The translations under genes and the position numbers were made by a program. DNA of 34,533 nt from Gemmatimonadaceae bacterium (lineage in GTDB: Bacteria; Gemmatimonadota; Gemmatimonadetes; Gemmatimonadales; Gemmatimonadaceae), in NCBI GenBank assembly GCA_013816855.1, contig JACDDT010000022.1, forward strand, positions 1 to 34,533, read 5' to 3'. Every line of letters starts with the position of its first letter. The stretch's first letter is position 1. Under the pieces are notes generated by a model. It did no database searches. It was not told where the DNA came from and worked only from the letters and a program-made list of their open reading frames with translations. Below, piece by piece: positions 2,549 to 12,289 of this stretch.

Positions 2549-4423
2549 CTACTTTACTTCGATCGGATACGAATTCAACGTCGGCGGTACGTTGCGTCGC
2601 GTGGTGATGACCTCGAGCGTCAGGGCTCCCGGTTTGGACGGGGTGAACTCGAAATCGTAGGTCTCGCCCGGGTTCACGATCAGACGGGCCGGACGAACGG
2701 TCGCCTGAGAAGCCGGCAATGTCGCGCCATCTTTCGCGAATGCGCGCCAGAATTGCACCGTGGTATCCGAGAGCAGCCGCACGACTTTGGCGTCGCTGGG
2801 CGCGATGCCGATGAGCCGCAGCCGATAAGTTCTTCCCGTTCTGAAATCGAATCGCGCATGGAAGCTGCCATTAAGCATCGGGACCGCATCAGGCTTCGGG
2901 CCACCCGCGGCGAAAAGCAGAACGCGATCAACATCAGGGTTCCATTTCGTTCCGGGCTCTAGAACAATGAGCGGACCGTACAATCCCGATGAGAGCTGTT
3001 TATCCTCATCGCTATGCGTGTGGTAGATGAATGTCCCCGCCCGGTCTGGAGTGAATTTCACGACGAAGGATTTCCCCGGTGCGATTGCGGGCGCGATGTG
3101 CGATCCCGACCCCGACCAGTCGCCGACGCCGTCGTAGTAGCTCTCGAGTTCGATGCCATGCCAATGGATCGACGCCATGTCCGACGTGCGGTTGTACACT
3201 GTGATCTCGGCGGGAACTCCGCGCGTTAGAATGATCGGTGATCCGGGAAGGCGCAGCGAATCGAGAGCGGGCGGTTTGAGCCCCTCCTGCAAGACGAATG
3301 AAAACCCCGGGCTCGCGCCGAAATAGTAATCCCGTCGATTGATGAAGAGCTTCAGCTTCTGCGGCGCTATAGTGCTAACCCGCGCGGGGGCCGCGTTTCT
3401 CGACGGGCGCACAGTGATGCCCATCACCAATCCCGCCATTTGATCGTAGGTATGATTGTGCATGCCGTGATTGAGGTCCCGCCGAATCACGTCGACGTCG
3501 CCCAGCCGCTGATCGGCCGAGACGTGGTGGATGATGTGGCAATGGAAAACCCAATTGCCGGGCCGGTTGGGAAGCCATGCGAGAGCCATGGTTGAACCGG
3601 GTTCCATGAACTCCGTGACCGCGAGACGTTGGTGGGCCGGCAAGTAGATGCTGTCGCGATCGGCGTCACCGCGGCTGAGGATGCGGTAGTAAAAACCGTG
3701 GAGATGCATCGGGTGCGGCGCGGTCGAGGCGTTGATCACACGCCAAAAGACGGAGTCACCCAGGTTGTACGTAAGCCGCTCGGTATACGGCCAGGAGCGG
3801 CCGTTCACCAGCATGTGAGTCTGGACCGACCGTCGGGGGCGCGTGGAGTCGGAAAGGTCGCCCCAGACAGTGATCACCATGATCCGATCCGCCCGTTTGT
3901 CGCCGGGAGGATCGACGATGAGGGCGCCCGCGAGTTGGCCGTCATTCCAGAAGCCGGCGCCGGCGCGGTCTCCATCGGTTCGCCCCCAGTAGTAGTAGGT
4001 CCCCGGAGTCATCGGAGTGAAGCTCACTTCCCTCGTCGCGCCCGGAGCGAGATCGATGGAGTCGAGCCCCGGCCTTGCCGACAGGCCTCGGACTCGCAGG
4101 CTCTTCGGAAGAGAGTTACGAAGAGTGACATGCACCGGAGTGCCGGCGATAACGCGAAGAAGCGGCCCGGGAGCCTGAAGCGGTTTCCCCTCCTCACTGA
4201 AAGCGAAAACCGTCAGTGCTGGATTGTGCTCACCCTCTGGGTACAACTCGCCGACCTTGGCCTCGAGGCGGACGTTGAGAACGCCGTTCGTAATTGCTCC
4301 CGCCGCCGTGCGGTTATCGTTGGATTCGATGGACAGCGCAGAGGACGCGGCGGTCGGAGCGGACGCGGGGAACCCAAGCGCGACAGGGAGCGCGACAAGA
4401 GCGGCGATGTTCAACACGCGCAT
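2549..4423 (-). CDS. Four-domain multicopper oxidase, exported
   Basis: 624 residues from the chosen ATG, which gives a good signal peptide (hydrophobic stretch 3-17, then FPASA). In-frame starts at 4471 and 4513 would put extra residues before it. Four cupredoxin-like units can be read. Unit 1 (about 50-175) lacks ligands: RVRG stands where HWHG is expected and YYWGR where HSH is expected. Unit 2 (about 180-340) carries HPMHLHG at 237-243 and HCHIIHH at 294-300, normally the C-terminal motifs. Unit 3 (about 355-495) carries HWHG at 420-423 and HTH at 468-470, normally the N-terminal motifs. Unit 4 (about 500-624) has no ligands. One complete type 1 plus trinuclear copper set is therefore present, in reversed order. 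A Met/His-rich stretch (HGMHNHTYDQM, 319-329) links units 2 and 3. A paralogue lies at 6546-8471. Substrate unknown (laccase-like or metal oxidase). Confidence 0.88.
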   Translation of the reverse strand: MRVLNIAALVALPVALGFPASAPTAASSALSIESNDNRTAAGAITNGVLNVRLEAKVGELYPEGEHNPALTVFAFSEEGKPLQAPGPLLRVIAGTPVHVTLRNSLPKSLRVRGLSARPGLDSIDLAPGATREVSFTPMTPGTYYYWGRTDGDRAGAGFWNDGQLAGALIVDPPGDKRADRIMVITVWGDLSDSTRPRRSVQTHMLVNGRSWPYTERLTYNLGDSVFWRVINASTAPHPMHLHGFYYRILSRGDADRDSIYLPAHQRLAVTEFMEPGSTMALAWLPNRPGNWVFHCHIIHHVSADQRLGDVDVIRRDLNHGMHNHTYDQMAGLVMGITVRPSRNAAPARVSTIAPQKLKLFINRRDYYFGASPGFSFVLQEGLKPPALDSLRLPGSPIILTRGVPAEITVYNRTSDMASIHWHGIELESYYDGVGDWSGSGSHIAPAIAPGKSFVVKFTPDRAGTFIYHTHSDEDKQLSSGLYGPLIVLEPGTKWNPDVDRVLLFAAGGPKPDAVPMLNGSFHARFDFRTGRTYRLRLIGIAPSDAKVVRLLSDTTVQFWRAFAKDGATLPASQATVRPARLIVNPGETYDFEFTPSKPGALTLEVITTRRNVPPTLNSYPIEVK

Positions 4424-4767
4424 GCGGTGGCTTTCGGAGAGTGCAGCCCGAAGCGTTTCGAAGGTTGCCATTGGCTTCCAACATACGGGAGAATTTGGAA
4501 TACGCCAACGCATTGCAGGGTTACTTGGATCGTTGGCTTGCGAAATCGGAGCAGCGGCTTATCGCTCACGGGGTCGCTGTAGTGGGTCTCGCTTCAGGTG
4601 TCGGTTCAGCTGTCACACCTCTGCTGGCGCGCGGCTTGCAGTTTTTCGCAGCGGCTAGCAAATTTTTCGCAAGGCGTGCCGCGAGCGGCGGCGCGACCAG
4701 GTCGCAGACCGCCGCCCGACTCGGACGCAAGGTCTGATTCCACGATCCGCTCCGGGAGATCGACTAA
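4424..4767. other. Divergent intergenic region between multicopper oxidase and S8 protease
   Basis: 344 bases that must hold the promoters of both divergent genes. I see no convincing -35/-10 pair. TTTTTCGCA occurs twice about 25 bases apart (within 4635-4680), a possible operator or chance repeat. A short forward ORF crosses the region and is listed separately. A GGGAG Shine-Dalgarno (4754-4758) serves the protease. Confidence 0.5.
4495..4737 (+). CDS. Possible small membrane-associated protein, unknown function
   Basis: An 80-residue frame starts at a TTG with GGGAG (4487-4491) just upstream and stops 30 bases before the S8 protease. The product would have a charged N-terminal helix (about 1-25), a hydrophobic Gly/Ala/Val segment (about 26-55, including GVAVVGLASGVGSAV) and a basic Arg/Lys-rich tail. 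That composition is more protein-like than the usual GC-driven shadow frames, and it would be co-directional with the protease. The frame is open further upstream to 4294 but there overlaps the oppositely oriented oxidase. I do not recognise a family. It may be spurious. Confidence 0.3.
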   Translation: MEYANALQGYLDRWLAKSEQRLIAHGVAVVGLASGVGSAVTPLLARGLQFFAAASKFFARRAASGGATRSQTAARLGRKV

Positions 4768-8471: not shown

Positions 8472-8511
8472 GTGGACCGACGTGCGGCTGCACCGTTCAT
8501 TGCGTATTCAG

Positions 8512-8546
8512 ATCCCGTCGCACCCCGTGGCGGGATTTCTTTTTGC
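8512..8546 (+). terminator. Probable terminator after the second multicopper oxidase
   Basis: ATCCCG and CGGGAT form the outer stem (8512-8517 with about 8531-8536), with an inner CAC/GTG pairing. The hairpin is followed by TTCTTTTT. It lies between the oxidase stop and the preferred start of the next gene, which argues against the GTG at 8472 being the real start of that gene. Confidence 0.65.
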
Positions 8547-8549
8547 TCT

Positions 8550-9113
8550 ATGATCGTGACCCATCAATCTGCTCCCGACGTAGAAAGCATCCGCGGTCGT
8601 CTTCTGAAAGTCCTTCGCCTCGCGCAGCAGGGCGTCGGTGGCGAGCGCGAGAACGCGGAGGTTCTGCTCGAGAAACTTCTCCGCAAGCACTCAATGACGA
8701 TGGCCGACCTCGAGGGTGCGCCGGAGGAGGCGCTGCGCCGAGTGTGGATGGCGGCGGGGGATCTCGATGAGCGAAGCGTTCTATCGCAGTTGATTGCGAA
8801 GCTGTTTGGAACAGGGCGCAAGCTCTGGCGCGCCGGGCAGGAATGCAATGTCGGAATTGACGTTACTTCAGCAGAAGGCGCTGCCCTCGTGATCGCGTGG
8901 GAGGTTTACCGCGCAGCGTTTGCGGAGGCGAGACACGCGCTGGTAATGGGATTCTGCTTCAAGCACGGGTTGTACGCCGCGGAAGGAACCAATCCGGAGC
9001 TGGACGATGAGGCGCGGGCGCGGGCGGCGCGTGCGCTCGCGCTGGCGGATGCGCTGCCCGCAGTAGACGCGCCCGGCCGTCGCATCAGCGCGGGTGACGA
9101 CGAAAAGTCGTGA
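8550..9113 (+). CDS. DUF2786-like protein
   Basis: 187 residues from the ATG at 8550; an in-frame GTG at 8472 lies before the terminator hairpin and is less likely. Residues about 12-55 (ESIRGRLLKVLRLA, then AEVLLEKLLRKHSM) match the pattern of DUF2786: a helix with K-L-LA followed by EA-LL-K---LM-KH. The domain is found in phage-related and DNA-associated proteins of unknown biochemical role. The remainder is mostly helical, with an Ala/Arg-rich stretch near 155-170 and no membrane segment or signal peptide. It is followed 45 bases later by an SRAP gene on the same strand, which may hint at a shared link to DNA damage, but this is only a neighbourhood argument. Confidence 0.6.
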   Translation: MIVTHQSAPDVESIRGRLLKVLRLAQQGVGGERENAEVLLEKLLRKHSMTMADLEGAPEEALRRVWMAAGDLDERSVLSQLIAKLFGTGRKLWRAGQECNVGIDVTSAEGAALVIAWEVYRAAFAEARHALVMGFCFKHGLYAAEGTNPELDDEARARAARALALADALPAVDAPGRRISAGDDEKS

Positions 9114-10777: not shown

Positions 10778-12289
10778 ATGAACGCTTCGTCGATGTCGCG
10801 AATTGCTTTTGGCTTCACTCTTCTAGCAGCGGTGACGGCCGCGGCACAAACGCCGCCGGTGAGCGGGATGCGAGTCAACCGCCTCGTCATCCGAAACGCG
10901 ATGGTGGTCAGTGGGAATGGCACGCCTGCCTCCGGGCCTTACGACATCGTTATCGAGAATCACCGCATCGCGCAAATGCTGCCGCTCGACCCCGTCTCAT
11001 TGCGCAACAACGCGAATAGGCCCGTGGGAGATGCGGAGATTGACGCGACCGGGAAGTATGTTTTGCCGGGAATTATCAACGCGCACGCCCACCTTCAGGA
11101 TGAGCGCGGCGGAATTCCGCAGCCATACGAGTACGAGCTCAAGCTCTGGCTGTCGTGCGGGATCACCACCGTCCGCGAGGTGGGAGCAGACGACACGCGA
11201 AAAGTTCTCGCCATGCGCGAGCGCAGCCGCCTCGGCGAAGTTGCGGCCCCGCGCATTTACGTCTACGCTCGGCTCACAAGTCCTCCAGCACCGTCGTCAG
11301 CGGCTGAGGCACGCCAGCGTGTTCGCGATCTCAAAGCGATGGGCGTGGATGGAATCAAGATCATCGACGTGGATCGCGAAGTACTCGAGGGCGCCGAGGC
11401 TGAAGCGCACAAGGTCAATCTTCGTATTGCGCACCATGTCGGAGTTCAAGATGCAAATGCGTGGGATGATATCCGCCTCGGCACAACCAGTATCGAGCAT
11501 TGGTACGGCATTCCCGACGCCGCATTCCTCGACGGCGTGCAGCATTTCCCGTCGAGCTACAACTATAAGAATGAGGTTGACCGGTTCCGCTACGCCGGAC
11601 GCATCTGGCGCGAGGCCGACTCCGCAATCTTATCTAAGGTTTTAGATGGCATGGTTGCGGCGCATGTCGCGTGGGTGCCGACGCTGGACATCTACGAAGC
11701 GAGCCGAGATCTGCAGCGCGCGCAGACCCAGCCCTGGTTCAAGGATTACCTCCACCCCGCGCTTGAGGAATATTTCCGTCCCAACCCCGCCAATCACGGC
11801 TCGTACTTTATCGGCTGGACATCGACTGACGAAGCATTCTGGAAAGAGAATTACCGCATCTGGATGGCGGCACTTCGCGAGTTCGAGCGCAAAGGCGGAT
11901 TGATTGGCATAGGTGACGACGCCGGTTTCATCTATCAGATGTACGGATTCGGGACGATCCGCGAAATGGAGCTGCAGCAGGAAGCGGGATTCAGCACGAT
12001 CAAAGTCATTCAGCATGCGACGCAGAACAACGCGAGAATCCTCGGAGTCGACGCCGGGCTCGGTAGAGTGAAGCGCGGTTATCTCGCCGATCTCGTCGTG
12101 GTGAACGGAAACCCACTTGAAAATCTCAAAGTGTTATATCCGACAGGCGTGGATCAAATTGTGGGCGGGGCAGTCGTCCACGGCGGCGGAATCGAGTGGA
12201 CGATCAAGGACGGAATTCCGTACCACGTTCCCGAGCTTATTAAGGACGTGAAGGCAATAGTCGCAAACGCGCGCACGGGGCGCAGATGA
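10778..12289 (+). CDS. Secreted amidohydrolase (metal-dependent hydrolase)
   Basis: 503 residues. A signal peptide (MNASSM then a hydrophobic run, ending near AAAQ24) predicts export. The TIM-barrel amidohydrolase domain has HAH at 103-105 (first metal pair) and a likely carboxylated K194 in GIKIIDV. H219/H220 and H241 (SIEHWYG) also lie in the metal site, and the catalytic Asp is D380/D381 in GIGDDAG. The C-terminal GYLADLVVVNGNPLENL is the usual strand returning to the composite beta domain. The family is the imidazolonepropionase/prolidase-like group, whose secreted members hydrolyse cyclic amides or Xaa-Pro dipeptides; the substrate here is not predictable. Its stop overlaps an ATG that begins a truncated DUF4126 copy. 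The hairpin at 10730 lies between it and the LamG-like gene. Confidence 0.88.
   Translation: MNASSMSRIAFGFTLLAAVTAAAQTPPVSGMRVNRLVIRNAMVVSGNGTPASGPYDIVIENHRIAQMLPLDPVSLRNNANRPVGDAEIDATGKYVLPGIINAHAHLQDERGGIPQPYEYELKLWLSCGITTVREVGADDTRKVLAMRERSRLGEVAAPRIYVYARLTSPPAPSSAAEARQRVRDLKAMGVDGIKIIDVDREVLEGAEAEAHKVNLRIAHHVGVQDANAWDDIRLGTTSIEHWYGIPDAAFLDGVQHFPSSYNYKNEVDRFRYAGRIWREADSAILSKVLDGMVAAHVAWVPTLDIYEASRDLQRAQTQPWFKDYLHPALEEYFRPNPANHGSYFIGWTSTDEAFWKENYRIWMAALREFERKGGLIGIGDDAGFIYQMYGFGTIREMELQQEAGFSTIKVIQHATQNNARILGVDAGLGRVKRGYLADLVVVNGNPLENLKVLYPTGVDQIVGGAVVHGGGIEWTIKDGIPYHVPELIKDVKAIVANARTGRR

Follow-up and report, generated by a model that had tools for sequence, protein, structure and literature searches.

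Multicopper oxidases are sorted by the presence of two, three or six domains, and the larger kinds are derived from two-domain ancestors (PMC3600357). In the bacterial six-domain MnxG-like oxidases and in algal Fox1, the trinuclear copper site lies between domains 2 and 3, with type 1 copper in domain 2 only in the bacterial enzymes, and the trinuclear site of ceruloplasmin is found at the interface of domains 1 and 6 (PMC3600357). According to the accessible part of a survey of soil metagenomes, Gemmatimonadales is the order with the most laccase-like genes, based on two- and three-domain models only, and a four-domain architecture is not described in that part of the report (PMC12045287).

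We analysed a window of 34,533 nucleotides (the whole stretch of DNA under study, from a Gemmatimonadaceae bacterium) which carries, on its minus strand, a gene for a multicopper oxidase made up of four cupredoxin units (P0001). The first-pass annotation had contrasted the order of its copper motifs with that of ordinary multicopper oxidases, but the order has a precedent that it did not mention, since the six-domain MnxG-like oxidases and Fox1 share the placement of the site between domains 2 and 3 (PMC3600357). The new features are thus a form with four domains, the abundance of this form and, in the type 1 loop, an insert enriched in His; the motif order is already known in six-domain enzymes. 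In the open-access literature, which leaves most subscription journals outside and makes absence weak evidence, no description of four-domain oxidases or of a permuted or rearranged domain order was found.

The six-domain MnxG-like and Fox1 enzymes resemble the four-domain family in the location of the trinuclear site and, for MnxG (9bxa), in structure (TMq 0.63), but they contain six domains in >1200 residues, whereas the family described here has four in ~620 residues along with the insert. Two-domain oxidases, which form trimers, have the domain-1/domain-2 order and the similarity seen in each half of the four-domain oxidase; however, they have two domains per chain and sites between subunits, in contrast to four domains and one site predicted within the chain. 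All motifs are common to the three-domain laccases (best PDB sequence match 4f7k), where domains 1-2 correspond to units 3-4 and domain 3 to unit 2. Unlike these laccases, in which HWHG/HxH come first and HPxHLHG/HCHxxxH last, the four-domain oxidase has the reverse order, an extra domain and a different inter-domain geometry. Ceruloplasmin, hephaestin and factors V and VIII are built of tandem cupredoxin pairs, as is the four-domain oxidase, and ceruloplasmin and factor V/VIII are among its best structural matches, but the position of the ceruloplasmin site at domains 1 and 6 differs (PMC3600357).

Gene organization and copper ligands

In its longest form, the open reading frame spans 2549-4513 (minus strand) and has 654 codons for amino acids, and residues are numbered here accordingly. 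The better gene call, and probably the true gene, is 2549..4423 (minus strand), which starts at Met31, since this residue (codon at 4423) directly precedes a Sec-type signal sequence recognized by eye, MRVLNIAALVALPVALGFPASA. The putative Sec signal peptide (residues 31-57; 4343..4423, minus strand), identified by eye from MR, a hydrophobic core and ASA, includes a region where AlphaFold confidence was low (model residues 1-17).

Profiles and alignments divided the remainder of the minus-strand gene into four units, and the chain ends after the fourth, so that there are four cupredoxin units and not six. Unit 1 (3908..4342) is a cupredoxin of domain-1 type that lacks copper ligands (RVRG, YWGR). 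Unit 2 (3398..3907), of domain-2 type and detected by Pfam as well (Cu-oxidase_2), carries a type 1 site and four trinuclear His: HPMHLHG (3695..3715) supplies type 1 His267 and trinuclear His270 and His272, and HCHIIHH (3524..3544) supplies His324, type 1 Cys325, His326 and type 1 His330. An insert of 28 residues (3440..3523) then separates His330 from Met359 (3437..3439), which is the putative axial type 1 ligand from alignment only. Unit 3 (2948..3364), a domain-1-type cupredoxin again supported by Pfam (Cu-oxidase_3), contributes four trinuclear His through HWHG (His450 and His452; 3155..3166) and HTH (His498 and His500; 3014..3022), and unit 4 (2552..2947) is of domain-2 type and without copper ligands.

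The reversed order of motifs, with HPMHLHG/HCHIIHH in unit 2 ahead of HWHG/HTH in unit 3, is real, and Pfam agrees independently by placing Cu-oxidase_2 at 231-333 and then Cu-oxidase_3 at 422-519. The motif positions given in the first-pass annotation were exact when counted from Met31 as residue 1 (HPMHLHG 237-243, HCHIIHH 294-300, HWHG 420-423, HTH 468-470). Its claim that the first and fourth units had lost their ligands was borne out. The two replacements that it cited, RVRG (where HWHG would stand) and YYWGR (where YHTH would stand), are present, but both lie in unit 1. In unit 4, an alignment of 75 members shows that His is missing wherever HPMHLHG/HCH would supply it.

In this alignment the eight trinuclear His, in four HxH motifs, and the type 1 ligands Cys325, His267 and His330 were invariant (75/75), as were Asp461 (of a DGV motif) and Glu455 near HWHG, and Met359 was Met in 74 members and Phe in one. 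A regular expression matched the motif order in 108 of 110 family members. Invariance at 11 of 12 ligand positions, taken with the near-invariance of Met359 and the constancy of the order, argues that the pattern did not arise by chance. Both the Cys and two His of a multicopper oxidase type 1 site, within HCHxxxH, and the full set of trinuclear His are thus found in the sequence, from which the motif order, the conservation of ligands and their loss in units 1 and 4 can be read.

The insert between His330 and Met359 varies from 12 to 43 residues across the 75 members (median 27) and is enriched in His (10.5%, compared to 3.8% overall) and Met (4.9%, compared to 2.2%). It would probably shape the access of substrate and is the best handle on what the substrate may be; our guess is a metal or a small phenolic compound. 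A separate observation concerns another subfamily, of two-domain oxidases (L111-L113, L117 and L120), in which a long insert rich in Met and Gly follows HCHMTHHTMTQM and precedes MGGMFTVLKVR; this insert, too, comes after the type 1 His and is comparable to that of the four-domain family.

Predicted structure and the interface of units 2 and 3

The full-length chain was modelled with AlphaFold2 using the 75-sequence alignment, and the four units were packed confidently (pLDDT 91.6, pTM 0.91). Ceruloplasmin (TMq 0.63-0.65), factor V/VIII and MnxG (9bxa, 0.63) were among the best matches to this model in the PDB. Scores against three-domain laccases and oxidases were 0.31-0.36, although Foldseek keeps chain order and poor scores against three-domain chains are therefore partly expected. 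A search of a library of viral structures gave poor matches only (best TMq 0.31).

A fragment containing only units 2 and 3 folded with a defined interface (pLDDT 87.6, pTM 0.83). Its best TM matches were again six-domain proteins, namely ceruloplasmin (0.59-0.65), factor V (0.61) and factor VIII (0.48-0.59), where the scores do not specify which two domains were superposed. Matches to two-domain oxidases, nitrite reductases and three-domain oxidases (0.27-0.36) were at a level like that of a one-domain superposition. Units 2 and 3 are thus predicted to meet in the manner of successive repeats of six-domain oxidases, and not like the domain pair within a single module. The interface between successive repeats of six-domain oxidases is the kind that carries trinuclear sites. 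The geometry appears similar to that of the six-domain oxidases but not identical, since a TMq of ~0.65 is moderate and the rmsd is about 5-6 Å.

It had been proposed earlier that a single type 1 and trinuclear set was kept, at the interface of units 2 and 3 within one chain, and the sequence and the single-chain models support this arrangement, the interface being a predicted one. Units 2 and 3 lacking a shared interface had been named as the outcome that would count against the proposal, and this outcome did not occur in the predicted fold of either the full chain or the fragment. The location of the ligands and the predicted geometry together place the site between domains 2 and 3, as in MnxG and Fox1.

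Origin of the four-unit chain

In a comparison of HMMs, the best match of unit 1 was domain 1 of two-domain oxidases (score 97, compared to 74 with unit 3), unit 3 was nearest to domain 1 (163) and unit 2 nearest to domain 2 or the last domain (135), and unit 4 scored 72 with domain 2 of two-domain oxidases and 45 with domain 2 of three-domain ones. The first-pass annotation had suggested that the two halves of the chain are repeats, with a failure of the halves to cluster as the refuting result. This failure was not seen: the halves are homologous, with alignment of one against the other scoring 108 for P0001 (shuffled maximum 60) and 70 for the second oxidase of the window, P0002 (shuffled maximum 55), and domain-1 and domain-2 types alternate along the chain. 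We infer from these sequence comparisons that two two-domain modules were joined, and an origin of this kind is well supported.

The same profiles, along with the geometry of units 2 and 3, disfavour a circular permutation of a three-domain laccase, in which the last domain would have moved to the front and an N-terminal cupredoxin would have been added. Units 3-4 do align unbroken to domains 1-2 of three-domain laccases, and unit 2 does match their last domain. However, unit 4 is nearer to domain 2 of two-domain than of three-domain oxidases, unit 1 is of domain-1 type, and the unit 2-3 geometry is unlike that of three-domain structures (a comparison limited by chain order), making this origin highly improbable.

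How the two modules came together was addressed with a tree of modules, in which each half formed a clade of its own (100/100) and the halves joined each other at 77/88, on a branch that was short (0.12, compared to 1.27 and 1.73). AU tests did not reject the grouping of either half with a different two-domain oxidase, of 2a or 2b type (p-AU 0.21-0.37). We tentatively prefer the reading in which a single two-domain oxidase gene was duplicated in tandem, after which both outer half-sites and the second type 1 site were lost. It agrees with the alternation of unit types, with the alignment of the halves and with the best tree, and 28 of the 75 members retain, at the second position of the lost HWHG of unit 1, a His that may be a vestige of that motif. 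The joining branch is nevertheless weak as well as short, other groupings were not rejected, and unit 1 is closer by score to domain 1 of another two-domain oxidase than to unit 3. Of the earlier proposal, then, the homology of the halves and the alternation of types stand, and the duplication itself is only weakly indicated.

The strong clade of each half and their weak joining also speak for an origin in which two distinct two-domain oxidase genes were fused, and the AU tests are compatible with this, but the best tree puts the halves together and no donor subfamily was found for either of them; we consider fusion somewhat unlikely. A relationship to the MnxG-like oxidases, either through loss of the last two domains of a six-domain enzyme or as an ancestor of that kind, finds a parallel in the shared pattern of bacterial six-domain oxidases, with type 1 copper in domain 2 alone and the site between domains 2 and 3 (PMC3600357), and MnxG (9bxa) is among the best structural matches. 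MnxG was, however, absent from the best 60 PDB sequence matches, and we regard this relationship as doubtful. All four origins are compatible with the copper-site mechanism proposed for the enzyme below.

Proposed enzyme

Duplicated or not, P0001 is very probably an exported and catalytically complete multicopper oxidase in which a single chain contains two two-domain modules, one after the other. The type 1 copper of unit 2 would take electrons from the substrate, the four His of unit 2 and the four of unit 3 would form a trinuclear copper site at their interface, and O2 would be reduced there to water. Export and copper loading are inferred, as are this reduction and the class of substrate. 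The ligand-less units 1 and 4 would serve as a scaffold, in place of the neighbouring subunits of two-domain trimers or of the further ring domains of six-domain enzymes. The copper sites most likely work by the standard mechanism.

Four-domain oxidases that are common and have just one working site, at the interface of units 2 and 3, make the step from two-domain ancestors to the larger kinds testable. A bolder reading is that the class survives as an intermediate that links two-domain trimers with six-domain MnxG- or ceruloplasmin-type enzymes, and that the His-rich insert lets it oxidise metal ions (Cu, Fe or Mn); we hold this to be rather unlikely.

Distribution of the family

The window contains a second four-domain multicopper oxidase, P0002 (6372..8471, plus strand), recognized from Pfam and from alignment to P0001 as a paralogue with 43% identity over 585 columns. 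Its true start probably lies downstream of the listed TTG. The two genes are ~1.9 kb apart, with a gene for an S8 peptidase between them. An open reading frame of 213 amino acids with no Pfam match (window 8472-9113, plus strand) directly follows the P0002 stop.

Full or partial copies of the family were found in 32 of 59 genomes of the same taxonomic family, with a maximum of five per genome (in G016). Across 200 Gemmatimonadota genomes, full-length members gave E-values below 1e-160 and ordinary oxidases, which align with only part of the family profile, gave E-values above 1e-33; fragments at contig ends scored in between. This sharp gap in scores divides the four-domain family from ordinary oxidases at the level of sequence. 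A scan of GTDB species genomes provided at least 557 confirmed relatives of P0001, the best 79 distinct loci of which all match over most of the length. Among the matches listed were Gemmatimonadota, Acidobacteriota (Terriglobia), Balneolaceae and one bin each of Rokuibacteriota and Steroidobacter, single bins that may be contaminated. An isolate, Gemmatirosa kalamazoonensis, has one copy on plasmid NZ_CP007129.1; G016, in which one of the five copies has coordinates that match, is probably this organism.

A frameshift or assembly artefact was ruled out by the presence of the same architecture, with no stops, in >100 loci, some of which are shared between the 59-genome search and the GTDB scan. 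Four-domain oxidases are, by these searches, a large and widespread family, and its members may be among the Gemmatimonadales genes reported in the accessible part of the soil survey (PMC12045287). The family brings to light a large set of uncharacterised soil oxidases, whose four-domain architecture would be hidden if automatic pipelines labelled them as ordinary multicopper oxidases.

One locus (L027:70-3336) encodes an in-frame fusion of 1089 amino acids, in which an amidohydrolase (Amidohydro_1 at 83-464) is followed by a four-domain oxidase of the family. An unfused amidohydrolase gene is present at 10778-12289 of the window and has relatives in two other loci.

Genomic context

Besides a loose excess of protein kinases, no conserved operon partner of the oxidase genes was found, and the neighbours therefore offer no clue to the substrate. 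Open reading frames similar to Ser/Thr kinases numbered 25 in 0.97 Mb around the oxidases (L032-L110), or ~26/Mb, compared to roughly 8-11/Mb in six host genomes, the background rate coming from genomes other than those of the oxidase loci. A kinase gene directly adjoins the oxidase gene in 10 of 78 loci, in mixed orientation, and at one locus (L197; G048:C1:450000-469000) an oxidase gene is surrounded by five kinase genes in a stretch of 18 kb.

Gemmatimonadota also encode two-domain oxidases of ceruloplasmin-like sequence (L188, L189 and L190 (G000:C104)), including one from the genome to which the window belongs, with the motifs YFIAADxVxWDYVPG, HPHG, YHSH, HWHG and F/YHCH in that order.
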